A DNA stretch of 64,000 bases from Zobellia galactanivorans (lineage in GTDB: Bacteria; Bacteroidota; Bacteroidia; Flavobacteriales; Flavobacteriaceae). The notes beneath the pieces are model-generated. The model was not told the DNA's origin and ran no database searches. It was given only the letters and a program-made list of their open reading frames with translations. Made by a program: the position numbers and the translations under genes. Within the stretch, counting starts at the first letter, position 1. Each line of letters opens with the position of its first letter. The stretch is taken from the NCBI RefSeq assembly GCF_000973105.1, contig NC_015844.1, positions 5,080,501-5,144,500 on the forward strand, read 5' to 3'. Below, in pieces: positions 5,356 to 27,958 of this stretch.

Positions 5356-5359
5356 AAAG

Positions 5360-7540: not shown

Positions 7541-7560
7541 TGTAGGCTGGTTATTTCGCC

Positions 7561-7600: not shown

Positions 7601-7605
7601 CGACA

Positions 7606-7638: not shown

Positions 7639-7722
7639 TTTTAATAACTTAAAATACACCCCTAGATTAGTACAATCAGTATAATGATTGCGCACTATTT
7701 TTTGAGACGTAGTAAAAGATTT

Positions 7723-9132: not shown

Positions 9133-9162
9133 TTTTATATTTATTAGTTGTAAAGAGGCTGA

Positions 9163-9603: not shown

Positions 9604-10831
9604 TTAAAATTTTTGAGATATTCATTTTTAATAAAGGGAGAATGGCCAACACAATTGAAACCACAGATATAGCTATTACTATTAGTAAGGTCTGTAGGAT
9701 TTGGTTAGTAGAAAATGTCAAAATTATATCTTGTTGAAATTGGGATTTAAATACATTGACCATAAAATGTAACCCAATCTGAGAAAGCAGAAAACCAAAA
9801 AATAAGGAAGCCAGTATCATTAATATGCCTTCAAAGCCTACAATACGGAACAATTGAAAATTACTGGCACCGTAGGTGCGCATTAAGGCAAGGTCAAAAG
9901 AACGCTCTCTGACCATTTTGTAAAGGCCAATAAAAATAGATATTGACGAAATGAGTAGAATTATATAAGCAATCCAAGAAATTGCTTTAACCCCAATTGC
10001 CGTATAACGGAATAGTCTCTCCAACTCATATTTGGGCATGGCCGCTTGCATATCCGTATTTGCATTGATGTTTCTTGGCATGGTCATATAACCCATAGGG
10101 TTTCTGAAGGTAACAAGCATAGAAGTTACTTCCCTTTCATCTGCTTCATGTAAATCATGTTCTTCATCGTGGTCATGTTCCTTATGAACTTCTTCATTTT
10201 TATCATGTTCTTCGCTATGATGGTGTACATGCCAAATACTTGCTAGTTCAGTTATGATGAGTCTGTCAATAACTTTGTACGTAGGCTTATAAATACCAAC
10301 AACTATAAAGGATTCATCGTGTTGTTCAATTGAATTCTCTGTTAAGCCGTGAGAACTTACAAACGTATCGCCCAGTTTTAAGCCTAATTGTTGTGCTACT
10401 TCATGGCCTAAAACAGTCTCCATAGAATTTTTGACTTCTCTTCCTTCAAAAAGTTCAGCACCATACATTTTTGCAAAACCTAAGGTAGACCCAACAATAC
10501 GGTAGCTCTTATAATTATCTCCATACGATATAGGCACTGCGTCCTTCACTAATGGATTCTTAGCCATTTTTTCAACTTCATAATATGGAATATTACCCGT
10601 TGGGTTATCTATGTGTAGAACCGAGGAAAGTACCAATTGTAAAGGACTGCCCTTGGCACCTACTACCATTTCTACATTGCCAATACCGTTTTCAAACTGG
10701 TTTTGTATGGAAGTGTCCAACTGTTGTATACCTAGCAATAAACCAATACTAATGGATAGAGAGAATACACTAAGGAAGGCATAGAGCGGCTTATGACTGA
10801 TGTTTTTGAGACTTATTATCCAATTATTCAT
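9590..10831 (-). CDS. ABC transporter permease (FtsX/MacB/LolE type) with His-rich loop
   Basis: 413 residues. One N-terminal membrane helix, a large periplasmic domain (about 40-280), then three C-terminal helices with the FtsX-like signature around RERSFDLALMRTYGAS. The periplasmic domain holds a strongly His/Asp/Glu-rich stretch at about 201-230 beginning HVHHHSEEHD, of the kind seen in zinc transporters and zinc-binding proteins. Most permeases of this type drive lipoprotein release or export; the His-rich insert and neighbours point to a metal-related role. The stop overlaps the next gene and the start overlaps the ATPase stop (ATGA at 10828-10831). Confidence 0.85.
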   Translation of the reverse strand: MNNWIISLKNISHKPLYAFLSVFSLSISIGLLLGIQQLDTSIQNQFENGIGNVEMVVGAKGSPLQLVLSSVLHIDNPTGNIPYYEVEKMAKNPLVKDAVPISYGDNYKSYRIVGSTLGFAKMYGAELFEGREVKNSMETVLGHEVAQQLGLKLGDTFVSSHGLTENSIEQHDESFIVVGIYKPTYKVIDRLIITELASIWHVHHHSEEHDKNEEVHKEHDHDEEHDLHEADEREVTSMLVTFRNPMGYMTMPRNINANTDMQAAMPKYELERLFRYTAIGVKAISWIAYIILLISSISIFIGLYKMVRERSFDLALMRTYGASNFQLFRIVGFEGILMILASLFFGFLLSQIGLHFMVNVFKSQFQQDIILTFSTNQILQTLLIVIAISVVSIVLAILPLLKMNISKILSDEK

Positions 10832-11457
10832 AGCGTAATTACATTTTTGAACGCAGACTTAATTCTGATATCATGGGTAATGACTATCAAATTTGCTCGA
10901 TTTTTTCCGGCCTGTTGTTGTAACAATTGTAATACGGCCATACAGTTTTCATCATCTAGGTTAGAGGTAGGCTCATCGGCCAAAATAACTTGAGGGTTAT
11001 GTACTACGGCCATAGCAATTCCTAGACGCTGTAGTTGACCTTCGCTGAGTTCATTGATCTGTTTCTTTTTAGTTTCGGTTAAATCCAATTGCTCCAATAA
11101 TGAATCGATTATAGTATGGTTGATGGATTTTTTGCTAAAAAAAAGGCGTGCCTTTAGATTATCAAGAACATTTAAAGACCTGACAGCATGACTTTTTTGA
11201 AATACAAGCCCAATATTTTGTCCCCTGAATTTATCCAATTCCGAATGAGATAGTGAGTTGATAGCTACTTCATCAATTACTAGTGCACCACTGGCGGGTT
11301 TTAAAAGGCCTGCCAAAAGATGGAGTAGTGTTGTTTTACCTATTCCGGATTTTCCTAAAATCAGCAAATGCTCTTGCTCTTTTAAAGCGATGTTTGGAAA
11401 GCGGAACGTATGTTCCGCTTTTTTGTAATGGAATGTGAGATTGTCTGTTTGAACCAT
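10828..11457 (-). CDS. ABC transporter ATP-binding protein (LolD/MacB type)
   Basis: 209 residues. Walker A GKSGIGKTT (35-43), Q-loop region, signature LSEGQLQRLGIA and Walker B VILADEPTS are all present. Powers the adjacent permease; overlap of four bases shows tight coupling. 25 bases downstream of the COG0523 gene in the same operon. Confidence 0.92.
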   Translation of the reverse strand: MVQTDNLTFHYKKAEHTFRFPNIALKEQEHLLILGKSGIGKTTLLHLLAGLLKPASGALVIDEVAINSLSHSELDKFRGQNIGLVFQKSHAVRSLNVLDNLKARLFFSKKSINHTIIDSLLEQLDLTETKKKQINELSEGQLQRLGIAMAVVHNPQVILADEPTSNLDDENCMAVLQLLQQQAGKNRANLIVITHDIRIKSAFKNVITL

Positions 11458-11482
11458 ATTAAATGTTTTCGCTTAAATAGTA

Positions 11483-12679
11483 CTACGCTATGGGCCATTG
11501 ATCTTCTTGTGGAAATAATTGTCCTTTCCAGACCTGTATTTCTGGCTCTGTGAGAATACAGTCTTCCAATTCGGAAATCATTTTTTCTTTATTTATGTGC
11601 TGCCCAATAAAAACTAGTTCTATTTTTCTATCACCATAAAGAACATCCCAGTCTGATTCAATTTGACCTTGATTTTCAGAAAAAGAAGCATAGTTTATCC
11701 GTTCTGAAAAGGGCATGGATGTCCACCAAACACCAGCAGAATCGGCTTTGTAAGAACCTCCTGCAGAGCTCCATAATAATGCTTGGTCTGATCTAGAAGC
11801 CAACCAAAATAATCCTTTACTTCTGATGATGTTTTGAGGAAAGCTTTGGTTCAGGTAATTCAAAAAACGTTCTGGGTGAAATGGCTTTTTACTTCTGAAA
11901 ACAAAAGAACTTATTCCGTATTCTTCAGTTTCAGGTACATGCTCATTTTCTAATTCTTGTATCCATCCCGCTGCAGCTTCGGCTTTTTCATAATCGAACA
12001 AGCTTGTGTTTATCACATTTTTTAGTTCAACTTTAGATTTAGTTGCTTCTATAATACGAGCTTCAGGATTTAATTTATGAATAATGGCCGTGAGTTCTTC
12101 TAGCTGATCAGTAGTAACCAAATCAATTTTATTGATGATAATAACGTTGGCAAATTCAATTTGATCGGTGAGTAAATTAACAATAGTTCTATGGTCGCCC
12201 TCAATGTCGGTTAGAGATCTCGTGGTAAGATAGTCTGGGCTAGAGAAGTCTTTTAAAAAGTTAAAAGCATCAACAACGGTTACCATAGCGTCTATATAAC
12301 TGAATCGACTTAAATCAATAGTACCATCTTCACTTTCAAAAGTGAAAGTTTGTGCAACAGGTATAGGTTCACTGATGCCTGTGCTTTCTATAAGCAGGTA
12401 ATCAAACCTATTTTGACTAGCTAGTTTTTCAACTTCCACCATAAGGTCTTCTCTAAGTGTGCAGCAAATACACCCATTGGACATTTCTACTAATTTTTCT
12501 TCGGTTCTTGAGAGTGTATTTTCATTTTCAATGAACTGTGCGTCAATATTAACTTCGCTCATATCATTTACGATAACAGCTACTTTCAGTCCTTCTTTGT
12601 TGTGTAATATATGGTTGAGCAATGTGGTTTTTCCCGCGCCAAGAAAACCACTTAATACTGTTACTGGGAGTTTTTTCAT
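11483..12679 (-). CDS. COG0523/CobW-family GTPase (metal chaperone), second copy
   Basis: 398 residues. Walker [10 protein letters not shown] at 11-19, metal motif CICC at 70-73, and an intact NKID guanine motif at about residue 170, followed by a C-terminal CobW-C domain (about 250-390). Longer than the paralogue at 6553-7458 and with canonical GTPase motifs. First gene of the leftward operon with the His-rich ABC system and the phosphatase. A degenerate GAAAT-AGA-GTTTT match to the Zur-box pattern lies at 12753-12765, too weak to call. Confidence 0.9.
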
Positions 12680-13197
12680 ATGATTTGTGAAACAGAAAAT
12701 AAGTTTCGTTTTTTATTTAAAAGGTACAGTTAAACTAGAGCTACCATATATCGAAATAGAGTTTTACAAAGCTGTATGATTAAATACAACTTCAAATATT
12801 CAGGGATATAGGCAGTTGGATTTCTAGTCCTAATTTTAATTATCATTAACGGATTTTCGATTTATAAGCGCATCACCATAGGTTGGAGCATGAACCCAAT
12901 CAACAAATTTGTAGTCGTGAATTTTTTCGTAGCATAGTCTGAGACGTAGTCATGTCTGTATTATTTCACGAACTATAAACAATGGATAATTTCCCCCACA
13001 AATGAGTTGAGCAAACCTATACAAGGAGAAGATGTAATTGATAAAAGCATTCGCACCTTTACTTATAGGGGCGTACAATTTTCAACATAAAGGACTAGAA
13101 GAAATATTGGATGTTCAATTGTCCAACACTATATGATCAACTAGTTGACTACGTTATGTTTAGTAACCTTTTTCAATAATAAAATGTATAGGAATAC
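12680..13197. other. Intergenic stretch with possible gene remnants
   Basis: No intact gene. On the minus strand 12869-12959 reads HDYVSDYATKKFTTTNLL, which resembles the N-terminal part of IS4-type transposases. On the plus strand about 12951-13090 an ATG-less frame reads YFTNYKQWIISPTNEL and ends in TAA. Both are short and of low certainty. Confidence 0.3.
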
Positions 13198-13506
13198 TTA
13201 GAATAAAGAAGGAGGAGGGCGGGAGAGGAGTTGGTCTGCGGAAATTACTGAGGAAACAACAAAATCATAGGCTTCAGTAATCTTTTCCGGCTGAAAATAT
13301 TCAATATTTTCAATAACTAAATCCTGTGAGTCAGGAGTAATGGACGGAGTTAAATTATTTGTGTTGATGTGGACACAAATAGCACAATCTACTCCATGAT
13401 TTTCATCATCAGTATGAGAAAAGACATGAAGCCCTGCCATTTTTGCTGTAATGAACAAGGCAAGGAAGAGAAAGGTGATGCTATTTTTTAAACTACCATT
13501 TTTCAT
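13198..13506 (-). CDS. Small secreted or membrane protein with His/Cys motif
   Basis: 102 residues from ATG 13506. An N-terminal hydrophobic segment (SITFLFLALFITAKMAG) is followed by HVFSHTDDENHG and DCAICVH, a compact set of His, Asp and Cys residues that could bind metal. The C-terminal third is featureless. Small proteins of this kind are found near metal-uptake genes in Bacteroidota, and the zinc operon begins 500 bases downstream. Family not recognised; function unknown. Confidence 0.55.
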   Translation of the reverse strand: MKNGSLKNSITFLFLALFITAKMAGLHVFSHTDDENHGVDCAICVHINTNNLTPSITPDSQDLVIENIEYFQPEKITEAYDFVVSSVISADQLLSRPPPSLF

Positions 13507-13729
13507 CAAACACAAACTTAATCAAATAAACAAAACTTCATGTTAATATAAACCAAATTAAACTTAGCCCGTTACTAGGTTTTTGCATGTTTTTAAATCT
13601 TGTCAATAGATTAAAATTGATTGTTTGGTGTTCGCAATGAATTTTCTAACGCCTGTAAAGCCCGTTCTCGCTTCAAATATGACCATCATTTTAATTTTAG
13701 ATGGGGGTATCTTTTTAATGCACAGTTTT

Positions 13730-14119
13730 TTAGTAGAGGTTAGCCATATCTGTAGAATTTTCTTCTATGAAATACCCTTTTACAACATCTCTTAAATGTT
13801 TTTCCTTTAAGGTAGAATTGGCAGTTTTATATTCTTGGTGTATAAGTTTAACGGCTGGGAAAGTCTCGCATTTTAATTCTTCCCCGTTTTTGTTTGTTAC
13901 TTTTAAGGTTGCCGTACCCTTTAAAAGATTTTTCCCTGAAATGGTAAGTGTTTTGAATTCCTCCTCATGCTTCAAATTTAAAGTGTTGTTCGTGGTACTT
14001 TCTAATAAAATATCTGATTTTATGTTAGAAACGTGTGTTAGTCTTTCTGCAGCTTTTTTATTATTGCTACAAGAAATGAAAAGTGAGGTAAGGCCAATGA
14101 ATAGAATTTGATATTTCAT
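13730..14119 (-). CDS. Small lipoprotein of unknown function
   Basis: 129 residues from ATG 14119. The start MKYQILFIGLTSLFISCSN is a lipoprotein signal with the lipobox Cys at residue 17. The mature part is Lys/Thr-rich and beta-like, with an Ig-like TISGKNLLKGTATLKV strand pattern. No family recognised. AT-rich like the rest of the island. Confidence 0.6.
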   Translation of the reverse strand: MKYQILFIGLTSLFISCSNNKKAAERLTHVSNIKSDILLESTTNNTLNLKHEEEFKTLTISGKNLLKGTATLKVTNKNGEELKCETFPAVKLIHQEYKTANSTLKEKHLRDVVKGYFIEENSTDMANLY

Positions 14120-14240
14120 AATTGTAATGTTTTTTAACACTACAAATTTGAGGATTGCGTCTCTTTGTAAACACACGTAATTAGGTGAAATGACATACCC
14201 TGTTTTCAGGGGTGTTCAAAAACTAGATTTTATATCAAAA

Positions 14241-14272
14241 AAAATCGCCTATAGGTTTTTATAGACGATTTT
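14241..14272 (-). terminator. Terminator of the broken membrane gene
   Basis: On the minus strand AAATCGTCTATA and TATAGGCGATTT pair around a short loop with one mismatch and are followed by a run of eight Ts. Lies downstream of the pseudogene at 14502-14815. Confidence 0.6.
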
Positions 14273-14501
14273 GTATACAGTATGGATTGATAACGTTAAG
14301 TTCCTATCATTTCACTCATTTCTTTTTTTAACTCTAGCTTGCATAGTCTGATGCTGTTCATGCATTACAAGTGGAACACTTGTTATGTGAGCCGACAATA
14401 CGAGGAGAGAGTAAGGTATATGGCTTAGAAATTATGCTATAAATTTGCGCTGTAAACAAAATTAAAATAGGGCTAGAATTATAACCTAGCCCTTATTTAA
14501 G

Positions 14502-14815
14502 TTATAATTTCCGAAGGTTCAATATTACAAATACTCCAATTATTAAAGTTATGAATACTGTTGGCAACATTACATAAAACCAATTAAAATCTCGTTTTAC
14601 AGTATAAAACTTAGCCTCATAATTGTCCCATTCGTTTCCTTTGCTGCCATATCACCCATGTGCTGCATTCCATAATACCAGATCCAGCTGAATTCATCTT
14701 CAAGTAAAGGATATTTTTTATACTGAGGATAAGCTTCATAATCTCCTAAAAAGTGGATTTCAAAATTTTTAGCTGTTGCGGTAAGCTGACGAGAATGCTG
14801 TGAAAAATTTATTGA
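14502..14815 (-). pseudogene. Frameshifted 3' remnant of a membrane-protein gene
   Basis: The minus strand encodes a convincing protein tail in two frames. About 14641-14815 reads ...GDYEAYPQYKKYPLLEDEF then SWIWYYGMQHMGDMA. From about 14640 to the TAA at 14502-14504 a different frame gives DNYEAKFYTVKRDF then NWFYVMLPTVFITLIIG and a positively charged end, i.e. a C-terminal membrane helix. The shift lies near 14636-14648. Upstream the frame hits TAG at 14816-14818, so the N-terminal part is lost. The topology would fit the end of an ABC-2-type permease, but that is a guess. Confidence 0.6.
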
Positions 14816-14872
14816 CTAAGAGTTTCTCATAAATCGTAAATTTTAAGAGAATTTAAAAGGTTAGCTTTTTTT

Positions 14873-14964
14873 TGGCGCTGGCCAAGCGTTGGCAAATTGT
14901 GTTTTAAAATGAACGCCATTTAGCGTTTATTTTAAAAAAGCAATCGAGCGTTTGGCTGTGCGGC
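14873..14964. repeat. Long imperfect palindrome with 15-bp central hairpin
   Basis: The centre is a 15-base stem (14902-14916 with 14923-14937, one G-T mismatch) around the loop CATTTA. Outside it GGCGCTGGCCAAGCGTT on the left pairs imperfectly with AGCGTTTGGCTGTGCGGC on the right. The whole ~88-bp structure lies outside genes, next to Xer-like half-sites, and resembles a recombination site or a miniature element rather than a simple terminator. Confidence 0.55.
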
Positions 14965-15077
14965 AATTTTACATAACGACAAATTATGGAACAAATGAAA
15001 ATATGCGTCGCAGACACCGCTTAAAAGAAGTTGATGACCCTGTTGTAGATTTTAATCAATTCTCTGAGCGTCAGGGA

Positions 15078-15179
<102 letters not shown>

Positions 15180-15393
15180 GAGAGGCCCTACCGTCAGGAG
15201 AATTCAAACCTCGGGTATGTTTCATAAAATTTAAAAGATGTGTGCTAAAAAAGCCCTCTCTTCTTCTTGTGATGACTAAGCCGGTCAGATGTATATGAAT
15301 AAAACAATAATGTTTGGTTAAATCCAGGTTTCCCCAAAGATCCAACCAAACATTACAAACTAGCGTAAACGCTTAAGCAAAATAGGCAAATAG

Positions 15394-15732
15394 TTAATGG
15401 CTTGAACAAATGTTCAAATATTCATCGACACCTTCGTTAAGTCTTCGAAACTCCGCCAATTGCTTTTTAGCGCGCTCTAGGTGCGCGTTTACGGCTTTAC
15501 GGGTATCTTTTAACGAGGAAATAATTTCACGGTTGGTATGGCTTAAAGAATCCATTTTAGAGCGTAGGTTCTCTATACTTTCGTACAAACTGTAGGTTTT
15601 AGGCTCGCATCGGTAGGAATTCAATTTCGTACGTAACTGTATCAAATCCTTTTGATTGCGTTCTAACCTAACAACAATTGCATTTTTTTCATTTTCTTCT
15701 AATCTGGGTCTGCTTCGCTCGAGTGTTGTCAT
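15394..15732 (-). CDS. Coiled-coil protein of unknown function
   Basis: 112 residues, charged throughout, without signal peptide or membrane segment. Heptad-like patterns suggest one long coiled coil from about residue 15 to 100. The C-terminus ends with a single Cys (NICSSH). The coding composition is intermediate between the AT-rich island and the core. No family recognised; probably cytoplasmic. Confidence 0.55.
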   Translation of the reverse strand: MTTLERSRPRLEENEKNAIVVRLERNQKDLIQLRTKLNSYRCEPKTYSLYESIENLRSKMDSLSHTNREIISSLKDTRKAVNAHLERAKKQLAEFRRLNEGVDEYLNICSSH

Positions 15733-16178
15733 AGTACAAAGATTTTTAGGGTTGATGAGATGCTTTCGTGTTCCTTACTAAGTTAAGAAAAATCCCTCAA
15801 AAAAACACGCTTAACACCCACATAATCAACATTTAACATGAAATTTATATTCTTTGCTATACTATGTCCCAAGCCAAATATTCATTTTTTATACAGAAGT
15901 TATCAACCGATAATCAACTGAAAAATAAGCTCTTATGTTAAGAATTTACTTACAGTAAATCTACCTACATCACCGTCAGTAGCTCCCCTGATTTTTTCGC
16001 ATATTTTCCTAGAATTCTACTAATCAGCACCATAAATCATCCTGAATCGATAAAAACACCTGTGTTTCTCAATACTAAAATATCAGAATTTCCTCCAGTG
16101 CTTCCTGAAAATTTCAAAAAAAATACCCCTAAAAAGCACTGGGCTCCTTAAGGGCATCTCCTGTTTAGGTGGTTATGT
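15733..16178. other. Intergenic stretch, nothing recognised
   Basis: 446 bases with stop codons in all frames and no hairpin, repeat or tRNA that I can support. It carries AT-rich runs on the upstream side of the coiled-coil gene and may hold its promoter. Confidence 0.5.
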
Positions 16179-18272: not shown

Positions 18273-18701
18273 TCAGTTTTTGAACAAGGCCCCGTACAAC
18301 TTGCCTACGCCCCAATTTCCCAAGGGAAAGTAAAGCGCAAAGAACAAGGCCATCGCCAAACTGAAGTTCCGAATACCAAAAAATCGGTCCATTAAATTAT
18401 CGGGATAGGCATAGGAGGTCCCAAAACAATAGCCCCCGAATTCCAAAAAGCCCATCGCTACCAGTCCGTAGGCATACTGGGTATGGAAGGGAAGCTTTCT
18501 AAGCAACAAGGATATGGGCACCATATATAGAAGGTAACAGCTGATTACCTGCCACCAATAGGTAAACTTGGCGATTTCCATCGCAGTACCAAAGCAGTTC
18601 ATCCCCATGCCCCAACTGAAATAAACGATACAATAGAGCGCCCATAAACGCCTATCTACCAAAAGCTTGGGTTTTGCCCAGGCCAAAAACTCAGCTATCA
18701 T
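18273..18701 (-). CDS. Small membrane protein of the type III PKS cluster
   Basis: 142 residues from ATG 18701, with four predicted membrane helices. The start directly follows the acyl-carrier-protein stop (one base between them), so it belongs to the same operon. It could anchor the pathway at the membrane or transport the product. I do not recognise the family. The longer open frame to 18743 would overlap the carrier protein and is not preferred. Confidence 0.7.
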   Translation of the reverse strand: MIAEFLAWAKPKLLVDRRLWALYCIVYFSWGMGMNCFGTAMEIAKFTYWWQVISCYLLYMVPISLLLRKLPFHTQYAYGLVAMGFLEFGGYCFGTSYAYPDNLMDRFFGIRNFSLAMALFFALYFPLGNWGVGKLYGALFKN

Positions 18702-18702
18702 G

Positions 18703-18957
18703 TTATTTGGCTTCAAGTTTGGCGTCGATAATACCGAGCGCATCCTTTACGGTTTGCATTTTGTCCATGTCGGCATTCTCCAACATAATATCGAACTCGT
18801 CTTCCACATCGAGTACAATATCTACCAAATTGGCCGAATTGATATTGAGCTCACTGATAAAATTACTTTCCAAGCCAATGGCATCGACAGAAACATCTTC
18901 GGGCAAATACACCTTTATAATGTCTTTTAGCTTATTGTACTTTGTCTCTTCCTCCAT
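18703..18957 (-). CDS. Acyl carrier protein
   Basis: 84 residues from ATG 18957, acidic and helical. The phosphopantetheine site is probably the Ser in LNINSANLVDIVLDVEDEF, a variant of the DSL motif with NSA at the attachment point. The distance to the DVEDEF helix is typical. It would carry the acyl chain built by the neighbouring ketosynthase, dehydratase and reductase. 36 bases downstream of the ketosynthase gene. Confidence 0.85.
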   Translation of the reverse strand: MEEETKYNKLKDIIKVYLPEDVSVDAIGLESNFISELNINSANLVDIVLDVEDEFDIMLENADMDKMQTVKDALGIIDAKLEAK

Positions 18958-18993
18958 AATTTTCAAGTCGATTCTATTTCTTTACGTTTCGTT

Positions 18994-20268
18994 TTAATCC
19001 GTATACCGTTTAAAAATAACACAAGCATTGACATCGCCAAAACCAAAACTGGCTTTTGCCAAAATTGAAGGCTTATAAGCCCTACTTTTTTGGGGGATGG
19101 CCCTCTGGTCTATAATCTTGGATATTTCAGGATGCACGTCTTCGCAATTCAGGTTTCCGAAAAGCACTTCCTTTTCAAACTGAAGCACGGCCGCCACACA
19201 TTCGATACTGCCCGCGGCCGACAGACAATGTCCGAAATAGCCCTTGAAAGAATTGACATAAGGGAAATCCGTTCCCGAACGCCCTAATGCGGCACTCCAA
19301 TTGGCGATTTCCAGGGCATCCTTGCCCGTGGCCGTCAAATGTCCGTTGATCGCATCGATATCGGCGCTATCGATACCCGAATTGCCGATCGCCTGTAAGA
19401 TGCAGCGTTGTACGGCTTCGCTATTGGGGGCGGTCATACTGCCATCTCCCCTTTGGCCACCGCTGTTTACCGCACCGCCCAGGATTTCGGCATAGATATG
19501 GGCACCGCGGGCCCGGGCACTTTCCAAGGATTCCAAGAGCAAGGCCCCTGCCCCACTGCCCGGTACGAATCCCGCTGCGGTGGCACTCATGGGCCTACTG
19601 GCCGCTTCCGGACGGTCATTGTACTGCCGGGGAAGGATGCGCATGGCATCAAAACCGGCCCAGACATAGGGACCGCTATCACTGCAGCTTCCGACCAACA
19701 TACGTTCGGCCTGCCCCTGCGCGATACGTTCATAGCCCATAAGAACGCCTTCGGTTCCCGTGGTACAAGCCGAGGAATTGGTGGTGACCTGATTCCCGCA
19801 TCCCAAAATACCGCCCAAATAGGCGCTTACCCCACTGGCCATGGTCTGTATAACACTGGTACTGCCCAATCGGCGTACGTTCTTTGCATCGATTTGATGA
19901 ATGGCTTCCCGAAACTTGGCCACGCCCAAGGTCCCCGACCCGAAAAGGACCCCACTGTCCCAATCCGGCGCTTCCTTTTCGGCTATCGCCAAGCCGGCAT
20001 CTTTCCAGGCATCGCTTCCGGCGATTACCCCGTACATAATGCCCGTAGCATTCAGGCCCCGTAATTGTAAAGGCGTAAAGTATCGGGCGAGCAATTCCTC
20101 GGTAAGTTCCGGTTGGGCCGCGATCTGACAGCCGAATTCCAGCTCTTTCAACCCGGGCTGAAAGCGGATACCACTTTTTCCGACGGCCATGGCCTCGGCA
20201 AAATCCCCTAGGCCTATTCCGTTGGGTGCACATACGCCCATTCCCGTAATCACTACTCTTCTACGCAT
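18994..20268 (-). CDS. Beta-ketoacyl-ACP synthase (FabF/KS type)
   Basis: 424 residues from ATG 20268. The start RRRVVITGMGVCAPNG is standard for FabF-type enzymes. The catalytic triad is visible: Cys in TNSSACTTG, His in INGHLTATGKD and His in GYFGHCLSAAG. The nucleophile region reads SSACTTG instead of TTACASG, which places it among secondary-metabolism ketosynthases rather than housekeeping FabF. Extends the acyl chain on the adjacent carrier protein. Start overlaps the dehydratase stop by eight bases. Confidence 0.93.
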   Translation of the reverse strand: MRRRVVITGMGVCAPNGIGLGDFAEAMAVGKSGIRFQPGLKELEFGCQIAAQPELTEELLARYFTPLQLRGLNATGIMYGVIAGSDAWKDAGLAIAEKEAPDWDSGVLFGSGTLGVAKFREAIHQIDAKNVRRLGSTSVIQTMASGVSAYLGGILGCGNQVTTNSSACTTGTEGVLMGYERIAQGQAERMLVGSCSDSGPYVWAGFDAMRILPRQYNDRPEAASRPMSATAAGFVPGSGAGALLLESLESARARGAHIYAEILGGAVNSGGQRGDGSMTAPNSEAVQRCILQAIGNSGIDSADIDAINGHLTATGKDALEIANWSAALGRSGTDFPYVNSFKGYFGHCLSAAGSIECVAAVLQFEKEVLFGNLNCEDVHPEISKIIDQRAIPQKSRAYKPSILAKASFGFGDVNACVIFKRYTD

Positions 20269-20701
20269 GGGTATGGGTTTTGAGCATTCCTGATATTTCA
20301 CCTTTACAGACCAGCTTCCCTTCGGAATTATACATTTTTACGCTACACTTCAGTTTATTGAACCGAAAATATAGTTTTTGGGAGCTTACGCTTACCTTTT
20401 CATTCGGAAAGACAGGAAGCAAAAATTCCATTTGGCTACTGCTGAGTCCGATTTCCACTCCCTTGGAAGCCTCCCCCAATAAAAAGACACCCAGGCACAC
20501 CAAGCCGATCTGCGCACAGCATTCGGTCAAGATAACACCCGGGGTTACGGGAAGGTCCTTAAAGTGCCCCTTATAGAAATACGAATCCCCATAAAAGGTA
20601 TAACTGCCCATAGCTCCGTTTTCATCGACCGCGATCAGCTCGTCAACGAACAGAAAGGGTTCCGCATAGGGCAATTGGTCTATGATATGGCTATGATCCA
20701 T
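20261..20701 (-). CDS. FabZ/FabA-like 3-hydroxyacyl-ACP dehydratase (hotdog fold)
   Basis: 146 residues. The hotdog core carries GHFKDLPVTPGVILTECCAQ, with the catalytic His in GHF and the acidic partner Glu in TECCAQ, as in FabZ. It would remove water from the 3-hydroxyacyl intermediate. No separate ketoreductase is in the cluster, so that step may be borrowed from primary fatty acid synthesis. It overlaps the ketosynthase start and lies 53 bases downstream of the SDR. Confidence 0.88.
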   Translation of the reverse strand: MDHSHIIDQLPYAEPFLFVDELIAVDENGAMGSYTFYGDSYFYKGHFKDLPVTPGVILTECCAQIGLVCLGVFLLGEASKGVEIGLSSSQMEFLLPVFPNEKVSVSSQKLYFRFNKLKCSVKMYNSEGKLVCKGEISGMLKTHTHA

Positions 20702-20754
20702 TATTTGATGGTTCTATTATGTTTTGATCTTTACTATTTACGCTTCGCCCTAAA

Positions 20755-21531
20755 CTACCTTAAACTCTCCCCGCCATCTACCTTGATGACGGTACCGGTA
20801 ATCCATTGGGCCTCATCGGTACTTAAAAGATAGACCACCTTGGCGACGTCTTCCGGCAGGGTCAAACGCCCGTTCGGATTGCGCTTCACGGCATTTTCCT
20901 TCAACACCTCACTATGGGGAATCATACGAAAGGCCTTGGTATCGGTAGTACCGGCCTGTATGCAATTCGCTTTGATGCCTTTGGGGGCGTATTCCAAGGC
21001 GATGTTCCTTACCAAGGCCTCCAAGCTAGCCTTGGCCGCTGAAACGGCTGCATAGCCCTCCCAGGCCCTGCTGCTACCTTCACTGGTAAAGGCCAAGATA
21101 CGGGCGTCTTCGTCGAATAGCCCCGCACCGTACACCTCCTTGGTCCAATCGTAGAGGCTTAAGGCCATGGCGTTTAAGGTAATCTCGATATCCTGACGGT
21201 TCAAACCGGGACCTTCATCGGAAAGCATGGGTTTCAAGCTTCCCTTGGCAATACTGTGCACCATCACCTTAATCTTTCCGGAAGTGGACAATACCCGTTT
21301 CATTTCCTCGACCGTCTCCTTTCTTCTTTCCGCATTTGCGACGTCCACATTAAAACTTAAGAGTTTCACCCCCGTTGAAGTAATTTTTTGAAAATGGGAG
21401 TTAACTTCCTCTAAATCAATCTTCCTGTCCCTGTGTACGATACAGATAGAATAGCCATGGGCGGCCATTTTTTTTGCCGTGGCCAATCCCAATCCACTAC
21501 TTCCCCCAAGAATAAGCACCCACTGTTCCAT
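20755..21531 (-). CDS. SDR oxidoreductase, FabI-like enoyl reductase or ketoreductase
   Basis: 258 residues from ATG 21531; the track of open frame begins with TTG six bases earlier. Rossmann motif GGSSGLGLA near the N-terminus. The active-site segment reads GYAAVSAAKASLEAL: a Tyr-x6-Lys spacing as in FabI enoyl reductases rather than the classic Tyr-x3-Lys. The C-terminus ends in WITGTVIKVDGG. In the cluster it should supply the reducing step of acyl chain building. Confidence 0.88.
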   Translation of the reverse strand: MEQWVLILGGSSGLGLATAKKMAAHGYSICIVHRDRKIDLEEVNSHFQKITSTGVKLLSFNVDVANAERRKETVEEMKRVLSTSGKIKVMVHSIAKGSLKPMLSDEGPGLNRQDIEITLNAMALSLYDWTKEVYGAGLFDEDARILAFTSEGSSRAWEGYAAVSAAKASLEALVRNIALEYAPKGIKANCIQAGTTDTKAFRMIPHSEVLKENAVKRNPNGRLTLPEDVAKVVYLLSTDEAQWITGTVIKVDGGESLR

Positions 21532-21564
21532 GATCAATTTTATTTCGTTTATGTTCGTGATTCC

Positions 21565-22620
21565 CTACCATTCCAACAAGACCCGCTGTGCCGAGAATCC
21601 CGGCCCAAAACTAAGGATAAGGCCTTGTTCTCCCGGTTTCAGTCCCTTGTCCATAAAGCGCTCCAATACGTAAAGTACGGTCGCGCTGCTCATATTCCCG
21701 TATAGCCGCAGTACCTCTCGGGTATCGTCTATATTTTTTCCCATGGACCCAAAAAGGGCTTCCACCGTTTGAACGATTTTCTTTCCCCCGGGATGGAAAA
21801 TCAGATGGTCTACGGCAGCTATGGAGGTGCCATGCTTTTCCAAAAAGGGGTGGACGATTTGAGGAAAATGCTCCGCTATGGTTTCCGGCACCGCAATATC
21901 GAGGATCATTTTGAGTCCGTGATTCGTCAGGTCGAAGCCCATGAGATGGGTAGCATCCTTAAAATGGTACATTTCGCCCCCTTTGATCTTTGGCCCCTCG
22001 GCCTTGGCCTCGGAAGACAAGAGCACACAAGAGGCCCCGTCGCCAAAGATGGCCGCACTTACCATATTGGCCATGGAAAAATCGTTCAACTGAAAGGTGG
22101 CGGTAGGACTCTCAACGGCAACGACCGCGGCCCGTTTTCCGGGAAGGGACTTCAAAAAGTTATAGGCATAGATCAGGCCCGATACCCCGGCGGCACAGCC
22201 CATTTCCGTTACCGGAAGCCGAACGACATCTTGCCGCAGGCCCAGGTCGTTGATCAAATAGGCGTCCAAGGAAGGGATCATAATACCCGTGCAGCTCACG
22301 GTGATGATATAATCCACACTATCGGCCTGCCAATCGCTGGCCTTTAAAGCCTTTTCCAGAACCTTCTTTCCCAGTTTTTTTACCTCACGTACGTAAATGG
22401 TGTTCTTATCCTCAAAGGAAGTGGCCGTAAAGACCTCCTCGGGTGCCATAATGCTGTAGCGTCGGTCTACGGCCGCCCCTTCAAAAATCTTTATCACCTT
22501 ACGTCTAAAACGGTCTTCTTGTCCCGAAAGCCACAGGTTGACAAGGGGCAATATTTCTTCCGTAGGCTTGCTATAATCGGGCAATTGCTTGGCCGCTTTT
22601 ACTATTCGAACTTCATTCAT
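21565..22620 (-). CDS. Type III polyketide synthase (chalcone-synthase-like)
   Basis: 351 residues from ATG 22620. The thiolase-fold catalytic triad is present: Cys in VTEMGCAAGVSG, His in LIFHPGGKK and Asn in LYGNMSSATV, followed by the GFGPG-like loop reading SFGPGFSAQ. It would extend an acyl starter with malonyl-CoA units to a phloroglucinol, resorcinol or pyrone. Start chosen because the longer frame to 22683 overlaps the methyltransferase stop. The neighbouring methyltransferase and flavoprotein recall srsABC of Streptomyces griseus, which makes methylated alkylresorcinols and quinones. Confidence 0.95.
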   Translation of the reverse strand: MNEVRIVKAAKQLPDYSKPTEEILPLVNLWLSGQEDRFRRKVIKIFEGAAVDRRYSIMAPEEVFTATSFEDKNTIYVREVKKLGKKVLEKALKASDWQADSVDYIITVSCTGIMIPSLDAYLINDLGLRQDVVRLPVTEMGCAAGVSGLIYAYNFLKSLPGKRAAVVAVESPTATFQLNDFSMANMVSAAIFGDGASCVLLSSEAKAEGPKIKGGEMYHFKDATHLMGFDLTNHGLKMILDIAVPETIAEHFPQIVHPFLEKHGTSIAAVDHLIFHPGGKKIVQTVEALFGSMGKNIDDTREVLRLYGNMSSATVLYVLERFMDKGLKPGEQGLILSFGPGFSAQRVLLEW

Positions 22621-22636
22621 ATATCTAAGTCGGTCA

Positions 22637-23341
22637 TTAATGTTGGGCCAGCCATAGGTACCTAAAAGCCCATTTTTGTTCAATACTATGCCTCATTTGG
22701 GGCAATTTTTCGGCAAAGGCCTCCAGTTCCCCCTTGACAAACCCACTCTTAATCGAGGTGAGTCCGTCTTGCTTGGCAATATCCGTGCGTATAAAAATAG
22801 TACTAAAGAGTTTAAAAAGGTAATACGCCCAAACGCTACGCTGTAAATCGTTAATAATAAAACCGATTCGGCCCAGTTTGGAAAATTGATCCAAAAACCG
22901 GGGAATCTCTTCGTCCTTAAAATGGTGCATGGTGAGCGTACAAAGCAAAATATCGCAAGGCAATTCATCGGGTCGTAAGGCCAAAATATCTTGTTGTAAA
23001 TATATGATTTCAGGAAAATCACGCGATTGTTCCCGAGCGAGGGCTAGGCTCTTCCCGTTCAAATCCACCCCCATACATGCTATGGAAATTTTTCGCTTTC
23101 GCGCCCATAAAACCACGGAACGAAGCATACTTCCGTTGCCGCAACCCATATCTAAAATCGTATATGATTCCTTTGGATGTTCCGATATTAAAGCTTCTAC
23201 GGCTTTTATGGTCAAGTTATTCCCGTTCAACAGGCGATTGGCCCGATCAATATCCAATAACACCGCATTAAGACGTGTTTCGTCTAGGGACAGATCGTCC
23301 ATTAACTCGGTTTCCCTATTCCTTTTTAAAAAATCAGCCAT
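22637..23341 (-). CDS. Class I SAM-dependent methyltransferase
   Basis: 234 residues. SAM motif I TILDMGCGNGSML, motif II-like MGVDLNGKSLALA, and LLCTLTMHHFKDEE as the motif IV region. Between the flavoprotein (stop adjacent to its ATG) and the type III PKS (16-base gap), so it most likely methylates the polyketide ring carbon or a hydroxyl. Which position cannot be told from sequence. Confidence 0.9.
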   Translation of the reverse strand: MADFLKRNRETELMDDLSLDETRLNAVLLDIDRANRLLNGNNLTIKAVEALISEHPKESYTILDMGCGNGSMLRSVVLWARKRKISIACMGVDLNGKSLALAREQSRDFPEIIYLQQDILALRPDELPCDILLCTLTMHHFKDEEIPRFLDQFSKLGRIGFIINDLQRSVWAYYLFKLFSTIFIRTDIAKQDGLTSIKSGFVKGELEAFAEKLPQMRHSIEQKWAFRYLWLAQH

Positions 23342-24463
23342 CTAGTGTATCGGTTTCCCATGTGTAAATCGAATCATCCGTTTCAAGAGCCAAGGCCATT
23401 TTACAATATATGCAATCGCCCTTTCCGACAACGTAGGATGCAAGAGCAATCCCTGCAACTGCCTACCGGCCCACAATCTTTTCCTAAAGGTACGGTTCCA
23501 GGTCGTTCTATAGGCCCGCTCCATAGCTTTACGACGCAAGCCTTGCCTTAAAAAGGCATCGATGAGCTCCGAAGCTATTTTGGCGCTATGAACGGCCATC
23601 GCCATGCCGTTACCACAAAGGGGATGGATCAAGCCCGCCGTATCGCCACACATCAAAATATGGTTTTCTACGGGTTGCTTCGGATGGAAGGAAATCTGGG
23701 CAATGGTCAAAGGCTGCTCGAACAAGGGAAGGGCATCGGCGAGAAAATCGCGTAAAAACGGATTGCCACTTACCACATTGGCATTGAACTGCCCAATATC
23801 CTTTTCCTTCCGGAAACTATCATAAGACGTGAGGTAGCAAAAATTCACCGCTCCCGACTCCGTCTTTGAGAGCCCCCCATAACCCCCCTTAAAATTATGG
23901 AGCCCCACTTGGTTCCCCGGAAAGCCTTCAACTTGATAATGTGCCTTGACGGCCAGCCAAGAGGATTTTTGCCGAATGAACTTTCGGTCCAGCTGCTTAT
24001 CCAATACGTTCCGCTTGCCGTAGGCCCCTATCACAATATTTGATGTATAACTTGAACCTTTTTCCGTAACTAACTTAAATATAGATTTTTCAAACTCAAT
24101 AGAAACCACGGCCTCAAAAGCAAAAAACACACCACAGGCCACCGCCCTTTGGTAGAGCAAATGATCCAGGGCATAGCGACTAATACCGGTGCCGCCCAGG
24201 GGCAAGCGGACCTCTAACACCGCCCCATTGGCGGTGGAAAACTTCAGTTGATCAATAGCGACCGCACCAAAATCGTTGAGATCCACTCCTAGGCGCCTGA
24301 GGTAGGGAAGCACTTCATTGGAGACATATTCGCCACACACCTTGTGATGGGGATAGGGCTTCTTTTCAAAGACAGCCACCTGATGACCCGCCTTTGCCAA
24401 ATGAATGGCGGCCGTTAATCCGGCCAGACCTCCCCCAACAATGATGACGTCAAAATGCTTCAC
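23342..24463 (-). CDS. FAD-dependent oxidoreductase (geranylgeranyl-reductase/hydroxylase family)
   Basis: 373 residues with a GTG start at 24463. FAD motif DVIIVGGGLAGLTAAIHLA at the N-terminus; second FAD motif MCGDTAGLIHPLCGNGMAMA. This family includes ring hydroxylases and lipid reductases. As first gene of the type III PKS operon it probably hydroxylates the phenolic product or reduces an acyl double bond. Separated from the upstream OmpA gene by a strong terminator, so a promoter should lie in 24464-24488. Confidence 0.92.
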   Translation of the reverse strand: MKHFDVIIVGGGLAGLTAAIHLAKAGHQVAVFEKKPYPHHKVCGEYVSNEVLPYLRRLGVDLNDFGAVAIDQLKFSTANGAVLEVRLPLGGTGISRYALDHLLYQRAVACGVFFAFEAVVSIEFEKSIFKLVTEKGSSYTSNIVIGAYGKRNVLDKQLDRKFIRQKSSWLAVKAHYQVEGFPGNQVGLHNFKGGYGGLSKTESGAVNFCYLTSYDSFRKEKDIGQFNANVVSGNPFLRDFLADALPLFEQPLTIAQISFHPKQPVENHILMCGDTAGLIHPLCGNGMAMAVHSAKIASELIDAFLRQGLRRKAMERAYRTTWNRTFRKRLWAGRQLQGLLLHPTLSERAIAYIVKWPWLLKRMIRFTHGKPIH

Positions 24464-24553: not shown

Positions 24554-25249
24554 TTACCCTTTTACCTTTTGTTTTGCTTCTTGCTTCAGCGCCTCACTGG
24601 CCACGATAGCCAATTCTACCCTTCGGTTTTTGGCCTTTCCCTCCTTGGTATCGTTATCCGCTACCGGTTGGGTCTCACCATACCATTTGGTTTCGAGGCG
24701 ACTCCTATCGATACCTTGTGAAATCAAGTAATTGGTTACCGAGGTAGCCCTTTGTTTCGATAGGTTCATATTGTAATCTTCGGGTCCCGCACTATCGGTA
24801 TGCCCTTCGATCAATACATTTGATTTAGGATATTCCTTCAAGATTTTGGCCATACTGTTCAAAGTCGTTCTTGAAGTACCTTGTACGGCAGATTTATTGG
24901 TTTCGAAATAAACCCCGGCATCTTCGTTAAAGGTTACGTTGATCCCTTCACCGACACGGCTTACTTCCGCCCCGGGAATCTCTTCCTCGATACGTTCCGC
25001 CTGACGGTCCATTCGATCACCGATATAACCGCCGGCAACCCCACCTATGGCAGCACCAAGAATTGCGCCCAATACGGTGTTGTTTCCGTCCCCGACGTTG
25101 TTTCCGATAATTCCACCGATGGCGGCACCACTACCGGCGCCTATTACGGCTCCCTTTTGCTTGTTATTGGCATTCTGTATAGTCTTACACCCTACGACCA
25201 TAGTCATGGCCATGATAATGTACGCTGATTTTATTACGAGCTTTTTCAT
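24554..25249 (-). CDS. OmpA-family lipoprotein with glycine-zipper
   Basis: 231 residues. Lipoprotein signal with lipobox MTMVVGC (Cys21). Residues about 33-80 form a glycine-zipper (GAVIGAGSGAAIGGIIG), which can insert in or associate with membrane. The C-terminal OmpA peptidoglycan-binding domain shows LIEGHTDSAGPEDYN and LSKQRATSVTNYL, and NRRVELAI near the end. It tethers the outer membrane to the wall. Similar to E. coli YiaD. Ten bases downstream of the lipocalin gene. Confidence 0.93.
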   Translation of the reverse strand: MKKLVIKSAYIIMAMTMVVGCKTIQNANNKQKGAVIGAGSGAAIGGIIGNNVGDGNNTVLGAILGAAIGGVAGGYIGDRMDRQAERIEEEIPGAEVSRVGEGINVTFNEDAGVYFETNKSAVQGTSRTTLNSMAKILKEYPKSNVLIEGHTDSAGPEDYNMNLSKQRATSVTNYLISQGIDRSRLETKWYGETQPVADNDTKEGKAKNRRVELAIVASEALKQEAKQKVKG

Positions 25250-25259
25250 ATTGCTGATC

Positions 25260-25742
25260 TTATTGTTTTACGAAATTATAGATAACCGAAACCGGACTCC
25301 CATCGACATTTACGTCGGACTTCAACCTCATTTGCGAATCCGAGAGGGATAGGATCTCTAGACGATACCCCGTTCTCCCATATAAGTCCTTTTTCTTTTC
25401 ATCGATAAACTTGAATTGCAACTTATCGTTGCCGTTTTCGTTTTCAAGCACCGACCACCTGATGTTTCGGGCACCTCCGGGACAGACACTGTTGCTTGTG
25501 GGTATGGTATAACTCCCCGTACTATTGTTTTCTAAAAAAGACCATTTACTGCCTTCAAAACAAAACCCGTTGGCATCGTTAAAAAGCATAGATTTAAAAG
25601 AGCCTCCATCACCTTCATAGCCAACATCCTCTAAAAGCCATGTACCATTGATGGTCTTACGTTGTTCACGCACTTCTTTTGATAGGGAACATGATGCCAC
25701 TACCAGAGCCAGTGCGAGCATCAATACACTATTTTTGATCAT
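25260..25742 (-). CDS. Lipocalin-family lipoprotein
   Basis: 160 residues. Signal MIKNSVLMLALALVVASC with lipobox Cys18. The body begins TINGTWLLEDVGYEG, the GxW hallmark of lipocalin-like strands, and has further beta strands ending in SVIYNFVKQ. Same operon as the OmpA-type lipoprotein downstream. Ligand unknown. Confidence 0.8.
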   Translation of the reverse strand: MIKNSVLMLALALVVASCSLSKEVREQRKTINGTWLLEDVGYEGDGGSFKSMLFNDANGFCFEGSKWSFLENNSTGSYTIPTSNSVCPGGARNIRWSVLENENGNDKLQFKFIDEKKKDLYGRTGYRLEILSLSDSQMRLKSDVNVDGSPVSVIYNFVKQ

Positions 25743-25882
25743 AATTTTGATTTAAGGTTTGCCTATATACGTTTAAGACTATCGATTTGTTGCCTTAAAA
25801 GCGTTAAACAATTATTAATACTGCAAAAATAATGTTCCAAGGGCTTTCCTACAGCCGTAAAACCTAAGATTTTTATCTTGTA

Positions 25883-27859
25883 TCAATACGCCAGAAGTTC
25901 TTGTAGCGCCTTTTCAAACCGGGATTTCGGCAAATAATTGTCCTCTAGGTTTTTAGCGAAGGGAATCGGCGTTTCCAAGCTCGCCACGCGCCTGATCGGC
26001 GCATCTAAACAGGTGAAGCGGTTTTCGGTGACCATGGCCGAAATATCGCTGGCTATACCCCCGAACAGGCTGTCTTCTTGAAGAATGATAAGTTTTCCGG
26101 TTTTCTCTACCGAGGTGTATACCGATTCCATATCCAAGGGCGCCAAGGTTCTTAGATCGATCAGATCGGCACTGATGTGGGCTTGCTTTTCCAGAGTGGC
26201 CAAGGCCCAATGCACACCCGCACCATAAGTAACGATGCTTACGTCCGTACCTTCCTTTAAGACACTCGCCTTTCCAAAGGGAAGCGTATAATAATCCGTC
26301 GGCACATTTTGGTATACACTGCGGTATAAGGCCTTGTGTTCGAAGAAGAGTACGGGATTGGGGTCGTTTACAGCGGTGGCCAACAAGCCTTTTGCGTCAT
26401 AGGGAAAAGCCGGATACGCCACTTTGAGTCCCGGAGTCTTGGTAAACCAGGCCTCGTTCGTCTGCGAATGGAAGGGTCCCGCCCCCACATCGCCCCCACA
26501 GGGCATACGAATGACCACGTCGGCCTTTTCGCCCCAGCGGTAATGCGATTTGGCCAAGTAGTTGACCACGGGATTAAAACCACTGCTTACAAAATCGGCA
26601 AACTGCATCTCGACCACGGCCTTCATGCCGTTAATGGAAAGTCCCATAGCCGTTGAAACAATCCCCGATTCACAAATGGGGGTATTCCGAACGCGTTCTT
26701 TCCCAAAAGCCTCCACAAACCCTTCGGTAATCTTAAAGACCCCTCCGTAATCGGCTACGTCTTGCCCCATAATGACCAGATTGGAGTGTTTTTCCATAGA
26801 CTGTCGCAACCCGTTTGAAATGGCGTCTACCAAGCGAATCCGCTCAACGACCTTCCCCGACTCGACGGCTTTCTCCCTAAAAGGCGCATAGACATCGGAA
26901 AGTTCCTGTGCTTCTTCCGATTCCACCTCGGTTTCCGCAAAGGCGAGTTTTAAATGGTCGTTGATTTGATTTTCGATTTCGGTACGTAGGTCTTCAATTT
27001 TTTCGGGGGTCAATATACCCTCATCCAAAAGAAAGGCTTCGTAATTTGAAATGGGATCCTTCTTTGCCCATTCCGCCATCAATTCCTCCGGCACGTATTT
27101 GGTGCCACTGGCCTCCTCGTGTCCACGCATGCGAAAGGTCTTGAACTCGATCAATACGGGGCGCGGGTTTTCCCGAATATCTTCGGCGATGGCCTTTAGC
27201 TTGGTATACACCTCTATAATGTGGTTGCCATTAATCGTATACGATTCCATTCCGTAGCCCACACCCCTATCCACTAGGTTTTTGCAGTTGTATTGCTCAC
27301 GGGTCGGGGTGGAAAGTCCGTATCCATTGTTCTCTATACAGAAGATTACGGGCAGGTCCCATACCGAGGCAATGTTCAGGGCCTCGTGAAAATCGCCCTC
27401 GCTCGTACCGCCCTCACCGGTAAAGACCGCGGTAACGGTTTTCTTTTGTTGCAGCTTAGCCGCTAAGGCTATCCCATCGGCCACGCCCAATTGCGGACCA
27501 AGATGGCTGATCATCCCTATAATCTTGTACGCTTGGGTCCCGAAGTGAAAACTCCGGTCACGCCCCTTGGTAAAGCCGCTCATTTTACCCTGCCATTGCG
27601 CAAACAAGCGGTGCAAGGGAATATCGCGAGTGGTAAACACCCCGAGGTTTCTATGCATGGGCAACACATACTCGTCTCGGTTCAAGGCGTTCACCACCCC
27701 TACGGAAATGGCTTCTTGACCGATACCGCTGAACCATTTGGAAATCTTGCCCTGTCGTAACAGGACCAACATTTTCTCTTCGATCATTCGCGGCCGCAAC
27801 AGGTCTTTGTACAGCTTAAACAAGGTCTCTTCAGTAAGTTGATGCTTGGCATAATGCAT
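25883..27859 (-). CDS. 2-oxo acid dehydrogenase E1, alpha and beta subunits fused
   Basis: 658 residues from ATG 27859. The N-terminal half is E1-alpha with the thiamine-pyrophosphate motif GEGGTSEGDFHEALNIASVW...ENNGYGLSTP split here for length. The C-terminal half (from about 335) is E1-beta, with MGQDVADYGGVFKITEGF and TPICESGIVSTAMG. It decarboxylates a 2-oxo acid, probably branched-chain, and passes the acyl group to lipoamide. The fusion is common in Bacteroidota. E2 and E3 are not in the window. Confidence 0.94.
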   Translation of the reverse strand: MHYAKHQLTEETLFKLYKDLLRPRMIEEKMLVLLRQGKISKWFSGIGQEAISVGVVNALNRDEYVLPMHRNLGVFTTRDIPLHRLFAQWQGKMSGFTKGRDRSFHFGTQAYKIIGMISHLGPQLGVADGIALAAKLQQKKTVTAVFTGEGGTSEGDFHEALNIASVWDLPVIFCIENNGYGLSTPTREQYNCKNLVDRGVGYGMESYTINGNHIIEVYTKLKAIAEDIRENPRPVLIEFKTFRMRGHEEASGTKYVPEELMAEWAKKDPISNYEAFLLDEGILTPEKIEDLRTEIENQINDHLKLAFAETEVESEEAQELSDVYAPFREKAVESGKVVERIRLVDAISNGLRQSMEKHSNLVIMGQDVADYGGVFKITEGFVEAFGKERVRNTPICESGIVSTAMGLSINGMKAVVEMQFADFVSSGFNPVVNYLAKSHYRWGEKADVVIRMPCGGDVGAGPFHSQTNEAWFTKTPGLKVAYPAFPYDAKGLLATAVNDPNPVLFFEHKALYRSVYQNVPTDYYTLPFGKASVLKEGTDVSIVTYGAGVHWALATLEKQAHISADLIDLRTLAPLDMESVYTSVEKTGKLIILQEDSLFGGIASDISAMVTENRFTCLDAPIRRVASLETPIPFAKNLEDNYLPKSRFEKALQELLAY

Positions 27860-27958
27860 AATGGAGGGGATGTCTTTTTGGATTTCAGCAGCTAAATGTA
27901 GCAAAAATACCACATCTGGCGCTCGATTTGTTATATATAATAGTTGGCCATATTTTAC

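Follow-up and report, generated by a model that had tools for sequence, protein, structure and literature searches.

Operons that combine a flavin adenine dinucleotide (FAD)-dependent enzyme, a methyltransferase and a type III polyketide synthase (PKS) make methylated alkylresorcinols or quinones, as stated in the accessible parts of two reports (PMC10896814, PMC9927152). The closest known cores of this kind are hidABC (hierridins of cyanobacteria) with its planctomycetal relatives, and pkqABC/srsABC (polyketide quinones and phenolic lipids of Streptomyces). Type III PKSs that take their starter from an acyl carrier protein (ACP) have also been described, and the available text of one source names SCO7671, germicidin synthase and ArsB/ArsC (PMC6274091). 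In this study, we characterized by computational analysis an operon of Zobellia galactanivorans in which an FAD enzyme, a methyltransferase and a type III PKS are encoded together with a short-chain dehydrogenase/reductase (SDR), a dehydratase (DH), a ketosynthase (KS), an ACP and a membrane protein, in this order from position 24463 downwards. It lies in a stretch of 64,000 nucleotides, hereafter named the window, which covers positions 5080501-5144500 of a genome assembled as one contig (5,521,712 bases).

As in the hid, srs and pkq systems, the PKS gene shares its operon with genes for a methyltransferase and an FAD oxidoreductase, which were found here in 80 of the 80 loci described below. 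As far as the consulted descriptions go, those systems comprise three genes, whereas the operon studied here adds SDR, DH, KS and ACP. The gene order also differs, being FAD enzyme-methyltransferase-PKS here, methyltransferase-oxidoreductase-PKS in hid and PKS-methyltransferase-oxidoreductase in pkq (PMC10896814, PMC9927152, both in partial text). In the Azotobacter ArsABCD system, fatty-acid machinery likewise feeds type III PKSs directly from ACP (PMC6274091, accessible part), but the operon here encodes discrete type II proteins, with a methyltransferase and an FAD enzyme. The cylindrocyclophane cluster is similar in that it starts from a stand-alone ACP and hands a ketide chain to a type III PKS, CylI, which takes over the chain from ACP-based synthases; it differs in that extension is by two type I PKSs, and a FabZ-like/FabL-like cassette does not appear in the available part of its description (PMC8086630). 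The dialkylresorcinol/flexirubin clusters are similar in that a homologous cassette was found beside them in 12 fetched loci, but their DarB is a KSIII-type enzyme, unlike the type III PKS of the window. The three-gene core is known, and its coupling to SDR, DH, KS and ACP is new. A search of the literature, which covered open-licence papers in partial text, gave neither a product for such a cluster nor any experiment on, or account of, the KS-DH-ACP cassette or its sharing with DarB clusters; such a negative is weak evidence.

We consider it fairly probable that this operon makes a methylated and oxidised lipid of the alkyl- or alkenylresorcinol type, perhaps a quinone, from a dedicated type II acyl supply, with an ACP-bound starter handed to the PKS. 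Gene content, conserved residues, conserved linkage and the cassette recurring beside DarB are direct observations of this analysis, whereas enzyme activities, direct transfer between ACP and PKS, ring type, tailoring order and function are inferred. In the inferred pathway, holo-ACP would carry an acyl chain that the KS would extend. The beta-keto group would probably be reduced by the FabG of the host, the FabZ-like enzyme would dehydrate and the FabL-like SDR, where present, would reduce the enoyl chain. The type III PKS would then take the chain from the cluster ACP as a starter, add malonyl units and close the resorcinol ring, and the methyltransferase and the FAD enzyme would modify the ring. 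This pathway is supported by the products of the known three-gene operons, by the existence of type III PKSs accepting acyl-ACP and by the mode of action of CylI, which is also the second fold match of the window PKS. One possible role is that of an alternative respiratory quinone, which Streptomyces sp. MNU77 and M. smegmatis are reported to have (PMC9927152, accessible part).

To assess conservation, genomes were scanned with patterns derived from this PKS clade. At least 557 encoded relatives were found, not all of which need be orthologs, and the best 80 were retained as named loci. The nearest named relatives among the matches listed belong to Zobellia, with PKS identities of 90% in Z. 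barbeyronii and 88% in Z. uliginosa. The FAD enzyme, methyltransferase and PKS genes were present in all 80 loci, DH and KS in 78, ACP in 76 and SDR in 71; the membrane protein gene occurs in 33. Where DH, KS or ACP is missing, the locus is a short contig that ends there (L078, L079, L080 and L124). In 19 orthologous loci compared first, with flanks of 1.5 kb, the FAD enzyme, methyltransferase and SDR were seen in 19 of 19 and DH in 18 of 19. PKS and KS lie on the same strand in 78 of the 78 named loci that have both, with at most 2222 nucleotides (nt) between them. In a sample of 395 genomes of the phylum, a PKS ortholog (at least 69% identity) was found in 33, after which identity drops to 37% or less. 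A KS ortholog (at least 60% identity) was found in the same 33 genomes and on the same contigs; five more of the 395 genomes have a KS at 46-51% identity (E<=1e-100). This shared distribution and close same-strand linkage support an acyl supply dedicated to the PKS.

The comparison with more distant loci points in the same direction. Among 16 distant type III PKS loci (L145-L160, 29-36% identity), three have both methyltransferase and FAD enzyme genes and two the methyltransferase only, while KS, DH or ACP matches were found near none of them. The arrangement FAD enzyme-methyltransferase-PKS-(SDR)-DH-KS-ACP is kept in L141-L144, where the upstream genes are different, and in five loci fetched through the KS (L200, L201, L202, L210 and L211), each time with a phosphopantetheinyl transferase (PPTase) match after the ACP; this retention of the gene set further supports the proposed pathway. 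An open reading frame (ORF) of the PPTase family also directly follows the ACP gene in 19 of the 80 named loci, with a gap of at most 2 nt. Its position there and in L141-L144 argues for a dedicated carrier, and the three PPTases tested (L083, L142 and L144) score over the Pfam cut-off. Both the gene content and its order are found again in other genera and families, so that the cluster reflects more than chance. Its first seven genes, from the FAD enzyme to the ACP, behave as one unit. In one locus (L139, 11374-12270), an alpha/beta hydrolase gene is inserted in the cluster.

A homologous cassette was also observed outside type III PKS clusters. Through KS homologs outside the PKS clade, 20 loci were reached whose fetched stretch has no match to a type III PKS (5 fetched first and 15 of 20 fetched later, the other 5 of the later 20 being PKS-linked). 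In 12 of these 20 loci (L187, L188, L192-L195, L197 and L205-L209), an SDR-DH-KS-ACP cassette stands divergently beside DarB, DarG and DarH genes, and 11 of them also have a PPTase match; 12 of 20 is no phylum-wide rate, as 15 loci come from two families chosen for the known Dar-linked case. DarB scored over the NCBIfam cut-off in the two loci tested (L187 and L188) and was called by blastp in the other ten (64-89% identity to L187). Two loci are cut by the contig end on the Dar side (L196 and L198). In L189-L191, a homologous DH-KS-ACP set, with an SDR in L189, adjoins a family-2 glycosyltransferase gene and a GNAT-like gene, perhaps representing an acylated sugar lipid pathway, and L199, L203 and L204 present the cassette in other settings. 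The first five of these genomes encode a distant type III PKS (30-34% identity) elsewhere. A KS tree of 27 rows was built with 16 PKS-linked KSs, the first five others and six of the seven other KSs of the window genome. The 21 cassette KSs group in one clade (100/100 support), apart from the six own-genome KSs, among which, and where they join, long branches were flagged; the PKS-linked KSs lie together on one side of a branch supported at 90/97. The window genome has its own dialkylresorcinol cluster (L174, 2398000-2417900), with DarB and DarH over the cut-offs and three KS genes, each only 24-27% identical to the operon KS. The cassette resembles a portable unit that supplies acyl-ACP to two different enzymes forming resorcinols, and its recurrence beside DarB-type genes supports the proposed pathway.

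In the window, eight ORFs, all open and all on the minus strand, fill positions 18273-24463 (Table 1). They belong to the families named in an initial annotation made from the sequence, which had described eight tightly packed genes and an srsABC-like core of PKS, methyltransferase and flavoprotein coupled to a dedicated carrier, KS, DH and reductase, and both descriptions were borne out. The interpretation given with them was supported in part, with direct passage of the acyl-ACP to the PKS, a branched or unsaturated starter and a quinone product remaining suggestions. The DH and KS genes overlap by 8 nt, and the remaining adjacent pairs are 0-53 nt apart. Promoter and terminator scans of the operon gave scores no better than shuffles, so that the operon limits rest on gene spacing. 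Pfam matches were above gathering scores for Methyltransf_25 (47.0 bits), DAO (49.4), adh_short_C2 (157), FabA (40.1), ketoacyl-synt (89.2) and, in the ACP, PP-binding (24.6 against a cut-off of 20.8). The type III PKS matched Chal_sti_synt_N (74.6 bits) and Chal_sti_synt_C (74.0), both above the cut-off of 27; the best NCBIfam match of the FAD enzyme, GG-red-SF, stayed under its cut-off (109.6 against 158.8 bits). The TTG start listed for the PKS at 22683 is probably too early, since many orthologs align only from about residue 19-24.

Table 1. Genes of the operon in the window (refined starts and stops; residue numbers follow the frames indicated).
Product	Position	Strand	Remarks
FAD-dependent oxidoreductase, geranylgeranyl-reductase/hydroxylase-like, proposed ring hydroxylase	23342..24463	-	Pfam DAO/FAD_binding_3; 80/80 loci
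S-adenosylmethionine (SAM) methyltransferase	22637..23341	-	Methyltransf_25/11; 80/80 loci
Type III PKS	21565..22620	-	Chal_sti_synt_N/C; Cys163, His297, Asn330 (numbering of longer TTG frame, 22683)
SDR, FabL-like, proposed enoyl-ACP reductase	20755..21531	-	Y162-x6-K169 (TTG frame from 21537); 71/80 loci
FabZ-like 3-hydroxyacyl-ACP dehydratase (DH)	20261..20701	-	FabA-like domain; His46, Glu60
FabF-like ketosynthase (KS)	18994..20268	-	Pfam; Cys179, His321, His358 (longer frame from 20301)
Acyl carrier protein	18703..18957	-	PP-binding; N-S-A motif, Ser44 (frame from 18966)
Small helical, probably membrane protein	18273..18701	-	no Pfam or NCBIfam match; 33/80 loci

The operon PKS is the sole PF02797 match in the window genome. 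The KS and DH of the operon are extra copies, as the genome holds other matches elsewhere: seven further KSs, all at most 32% identical to the operon KS, and one FabZ-like paralog within an ORF of 474-476 amino acids, 26-27% identical to the operon DH, which we take to be probably an LpxC-FabZ fusion. Conserved residues were counted over the window protein, the orthologs of the 80 named loci and four distant loci, leaving out loci without the gene. For DH, KS, SDR and ACP, the catalytic residues are those typical of the families. DH His46 and Glu60 are kept in 83 of 83 sequences, ACP Ser44 within N-S-A in 81 of 81, KS Cys179, His321 and His358 in every ungapped row (81-82 of 83), and SDR Y162 and K169 in 74 of 74, best SDR matches under 40% identity having been dropped beforehand. 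The dedicated carrier and KS put forward by the initial annotation are supported by this carrier serine, the joint presence in 33 of 395 genomes, the PPTase in 19 of 80 loci and the cassette beside DarB. The PKS triad Cys163/His297/Asn330, assigned as catalytic after the accessible text of PMC6274091, is present in 85 of 85 sequences.

The reductase had been called FabI-like in the initial annotation. Compared with solved structures, it has two matches at E<=1e-20, of which FabL is the best, and in the alignment with FabL (3oic) it shows a Y-x6-K spacing instead of Y-x3-K. The Y-x6-K spacing marks enoyl reductases. This protein, closest to FabL rather than FabI, is named FabL-like and not FabL because its NCBIfam FabL score is below the cut-off (161 against 328 bits). 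Given the FabL likeness and the Y-x6-K spacing, the protein is more probably an enoyl reductase than a ketoreductase. A classical ketoreductase was rejected, as V165 occupies in 74 of 74 sequences the place where Y-x3-K needs Tyr. A second SDR inserted in the cluster of L120 (10973-11752), the single additional SDR examined, has Y-x3-K.

By sequence, the nearest solved relatives of the PKS are Pks11 (best), THNS and CylI. Its AlphaFold2 model (pLDDT 84.6) matches the fold of Pks11 (Z 43.5, 346 residues aligned, root-mean-square deviation 2.5), followed by CylI (Z 42.0) and a next match at 39.1. Assignments as DarB/StlD (NCBIfam NF005293, 19.8 bits against a cut-off of 450) and as DpgA (NF042429, 172.8 against 425) were rejected. 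A long-chain tunnel like that of Pks18 was considered but not retained. Window Pro193 was aligned with the tunnel residue Pks18 Cys205 via L160, where the entries 1tee (C205F) and 1ted have different letters. This position holds Pro in 85 of 85 cassette-linked PKSs versus Cys in 16 of 16 distant loci. At the position of THNS Tyr224, which corresponds to CHS Gly256 (PMC6274091, accessible part), Phe is found in 85 of 85 cassette-linked PKSs versus Trp in 15 of the 16 distant loci and Phe in one. These two active-site differences from relatives would fit a changed starter, without proving one. ArsB Trp281 is probably in the same column as THNS Tyr224/CHS Gly256. This agrees with a figure legend in PMC9927152, in partial text, which counts M. 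tuberculosis among the Trp bearers, and with the Trp that Pks11 itself has at the aligned position.

Several observations weigh against a resorcinol lipid built on a dedicated carrier. The role of the FAD enzyme is left open in the accessible part of PMC10896814. The window cluster has no dedicated ketoreductase gene and no PPTase beside its ACP, the one ACPS-family match of the genome lying outside the operon. Nine of the 80 loci lack the SDR: seven are from Arenibacter, one is from Maribacter antarcticus (L076) and one from an uncultured metagenome-assembled genome (MAG, L116). No SDR match at E<=1e-30 was found elsewhere in those nine genomes, whose completeness is not told, L116 being a MAG, while three control genomes gave one match each at the same threshold. 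The enoyl-reduction step would therefore be dispensable or replaced; the gene is also not in the clusters of L142, L143, L210 and L211, where the cluster only was looked at. Pks11, nearest to the PKS by sequence and fold, makes alkylpyrones. In addition, the cassette-linked PKSs (85 of 85) have Phe at the position mapped to ArsB Trp281, a mapping drawn without the ArsB sequence; Trp at this position is tied to resorcinol formation in the accessible parts of two sources (PMC6274091, PMC9927152) and is used for the pkq type. Finally, 6 of the 20 cassette loci outside PKS clusters are in glycosyltransferase or other settings, and the cassette is thus not tied to resorcinols alone.

A first alternative is an ordinary acyl-CoA starter, the PKS using coenzyme A (CoA)-bound chains or the acyl-ACP pools of the host, in the manner of known alkylresorcinol synthases, and the cassette only raising or lengthening the general acyl supply. 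Planctomycetal type III PKSs yield alkylresorcinols in a foreign host without any cassette, according to the available text of PMC10896814, and the SDR is dispensable. We nevertheless regard this explanation as unlikely, given the presence of PKS and KS in the same genomes, the dedicated ACP with a PPTase in related clusters, and the homologous cassette beside DarB, all of which point to a dedicated carrier. About equally improbable is closure of a pyrone by the PKS, of the kind formed by Pks11 and Pks18, which the methyltransferase would cap. The best match by sequence and fold, Pks11, speaks for an alkylpyrone, as does the Phe at the position mapped to ArsB Trp281, but Pks11 has Trp there, so that this residue cannot separate pyrone from resorcinol formers; the conserved FAD enzyme suits a phenol more than a pyrone, and the homologous cassette adjoins DarB, a resorcinol former. 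These two explanations overlap, and both could hold. That DH-KS-ACP(-SDR) makes an unrelated acyl product and merely neighbours the FAD enzyme-methyltransferase-PKS core, as the 20 cassette loci without an adjacent type III PKS could suggest (3 beside glycosyltransferase and GNAT-like genes, 3 in other settings), is very improbable, since PKS and cassette are never apart in this PKS clade across the 395 genomes, are both present in all 76 named loci that are not truncated by the end of a contig, and are kept together in distant families despite different neighbours.

A bolder proposal can also be made, which we advance tentatively and would not yet bet on. A portable cassette of enoyl reductase, DH, KS, carrier and PPTase may have been plugged into two unrelated resorcinol formers of Bacteroidota, the type III PKS and DarB. 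The type III PKS would now be specific for the ACP-bound chain of the cassette, every cassette-linked PKS examined carrying Pro at the tunnel position of Pks18 Cys205 and Phe at that of CHS Gly256, and loss of the enoyl reductase in some lineages would shift alkyl- to alkenylresorcinols.

The membrane protein, which the initial annotation had counted as part of the cluster, falls outside the conserved core: it was rejected as a core part, being found in only 33 of 80 loci, and is a lineage-specific extra. In all 33 loci it is on the same strand and downstream of the ACP, in the slot where related clusters have the PPTase. The two genes never occur together, and 24 of the 76 ACP-bearing loci have neither. 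Its model (pLDDT 78.5) gave no PDB match with E<=0.001, and its sequence no Pfam or NCBIfam match. Upstream of the operon (window 24554-27913) are an OmpA-like gene, so labelled by our own reading, a lipocalin-like gene and a fused pyruvate-dehydrogenase-E1-like gene. They are syntenic in 67-72 of the 80 Flavobacteriaceae loci but were rejected as pathway partners, as they have no blastp match (E<=1e-5) in the 20 loci L141-L160; vertical inheritance of the neighbourhood suffices as an explanation. Elsewhere in the window, GC content dips to 0.33-0.37 (2-kb steps) at 4001-16000 and 58001-64000, nearly all other steps being at 0.42-0.49, and these low-GC stretches are perhaps acquired DNA.

In Flavobacteriaceae surveys, about 9-11% of the biosynthetic clusters predicted are type III PKS clusters (PMC7440613, PMC10734526, accessible parts). 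If the proposed pathway is true, a considerable share of these could belong to a single system, given the at least 557 encoded relatives, in which a discrete type II acyl supply feeds a type III PKS and which would be tractable in vitro with four or five small proteins. Lineages without the reductase would be natural variants for predicting product chains. Orphan clusters of Flavobacteriaceae would then be linked to the dialkylresorcinol pathway.

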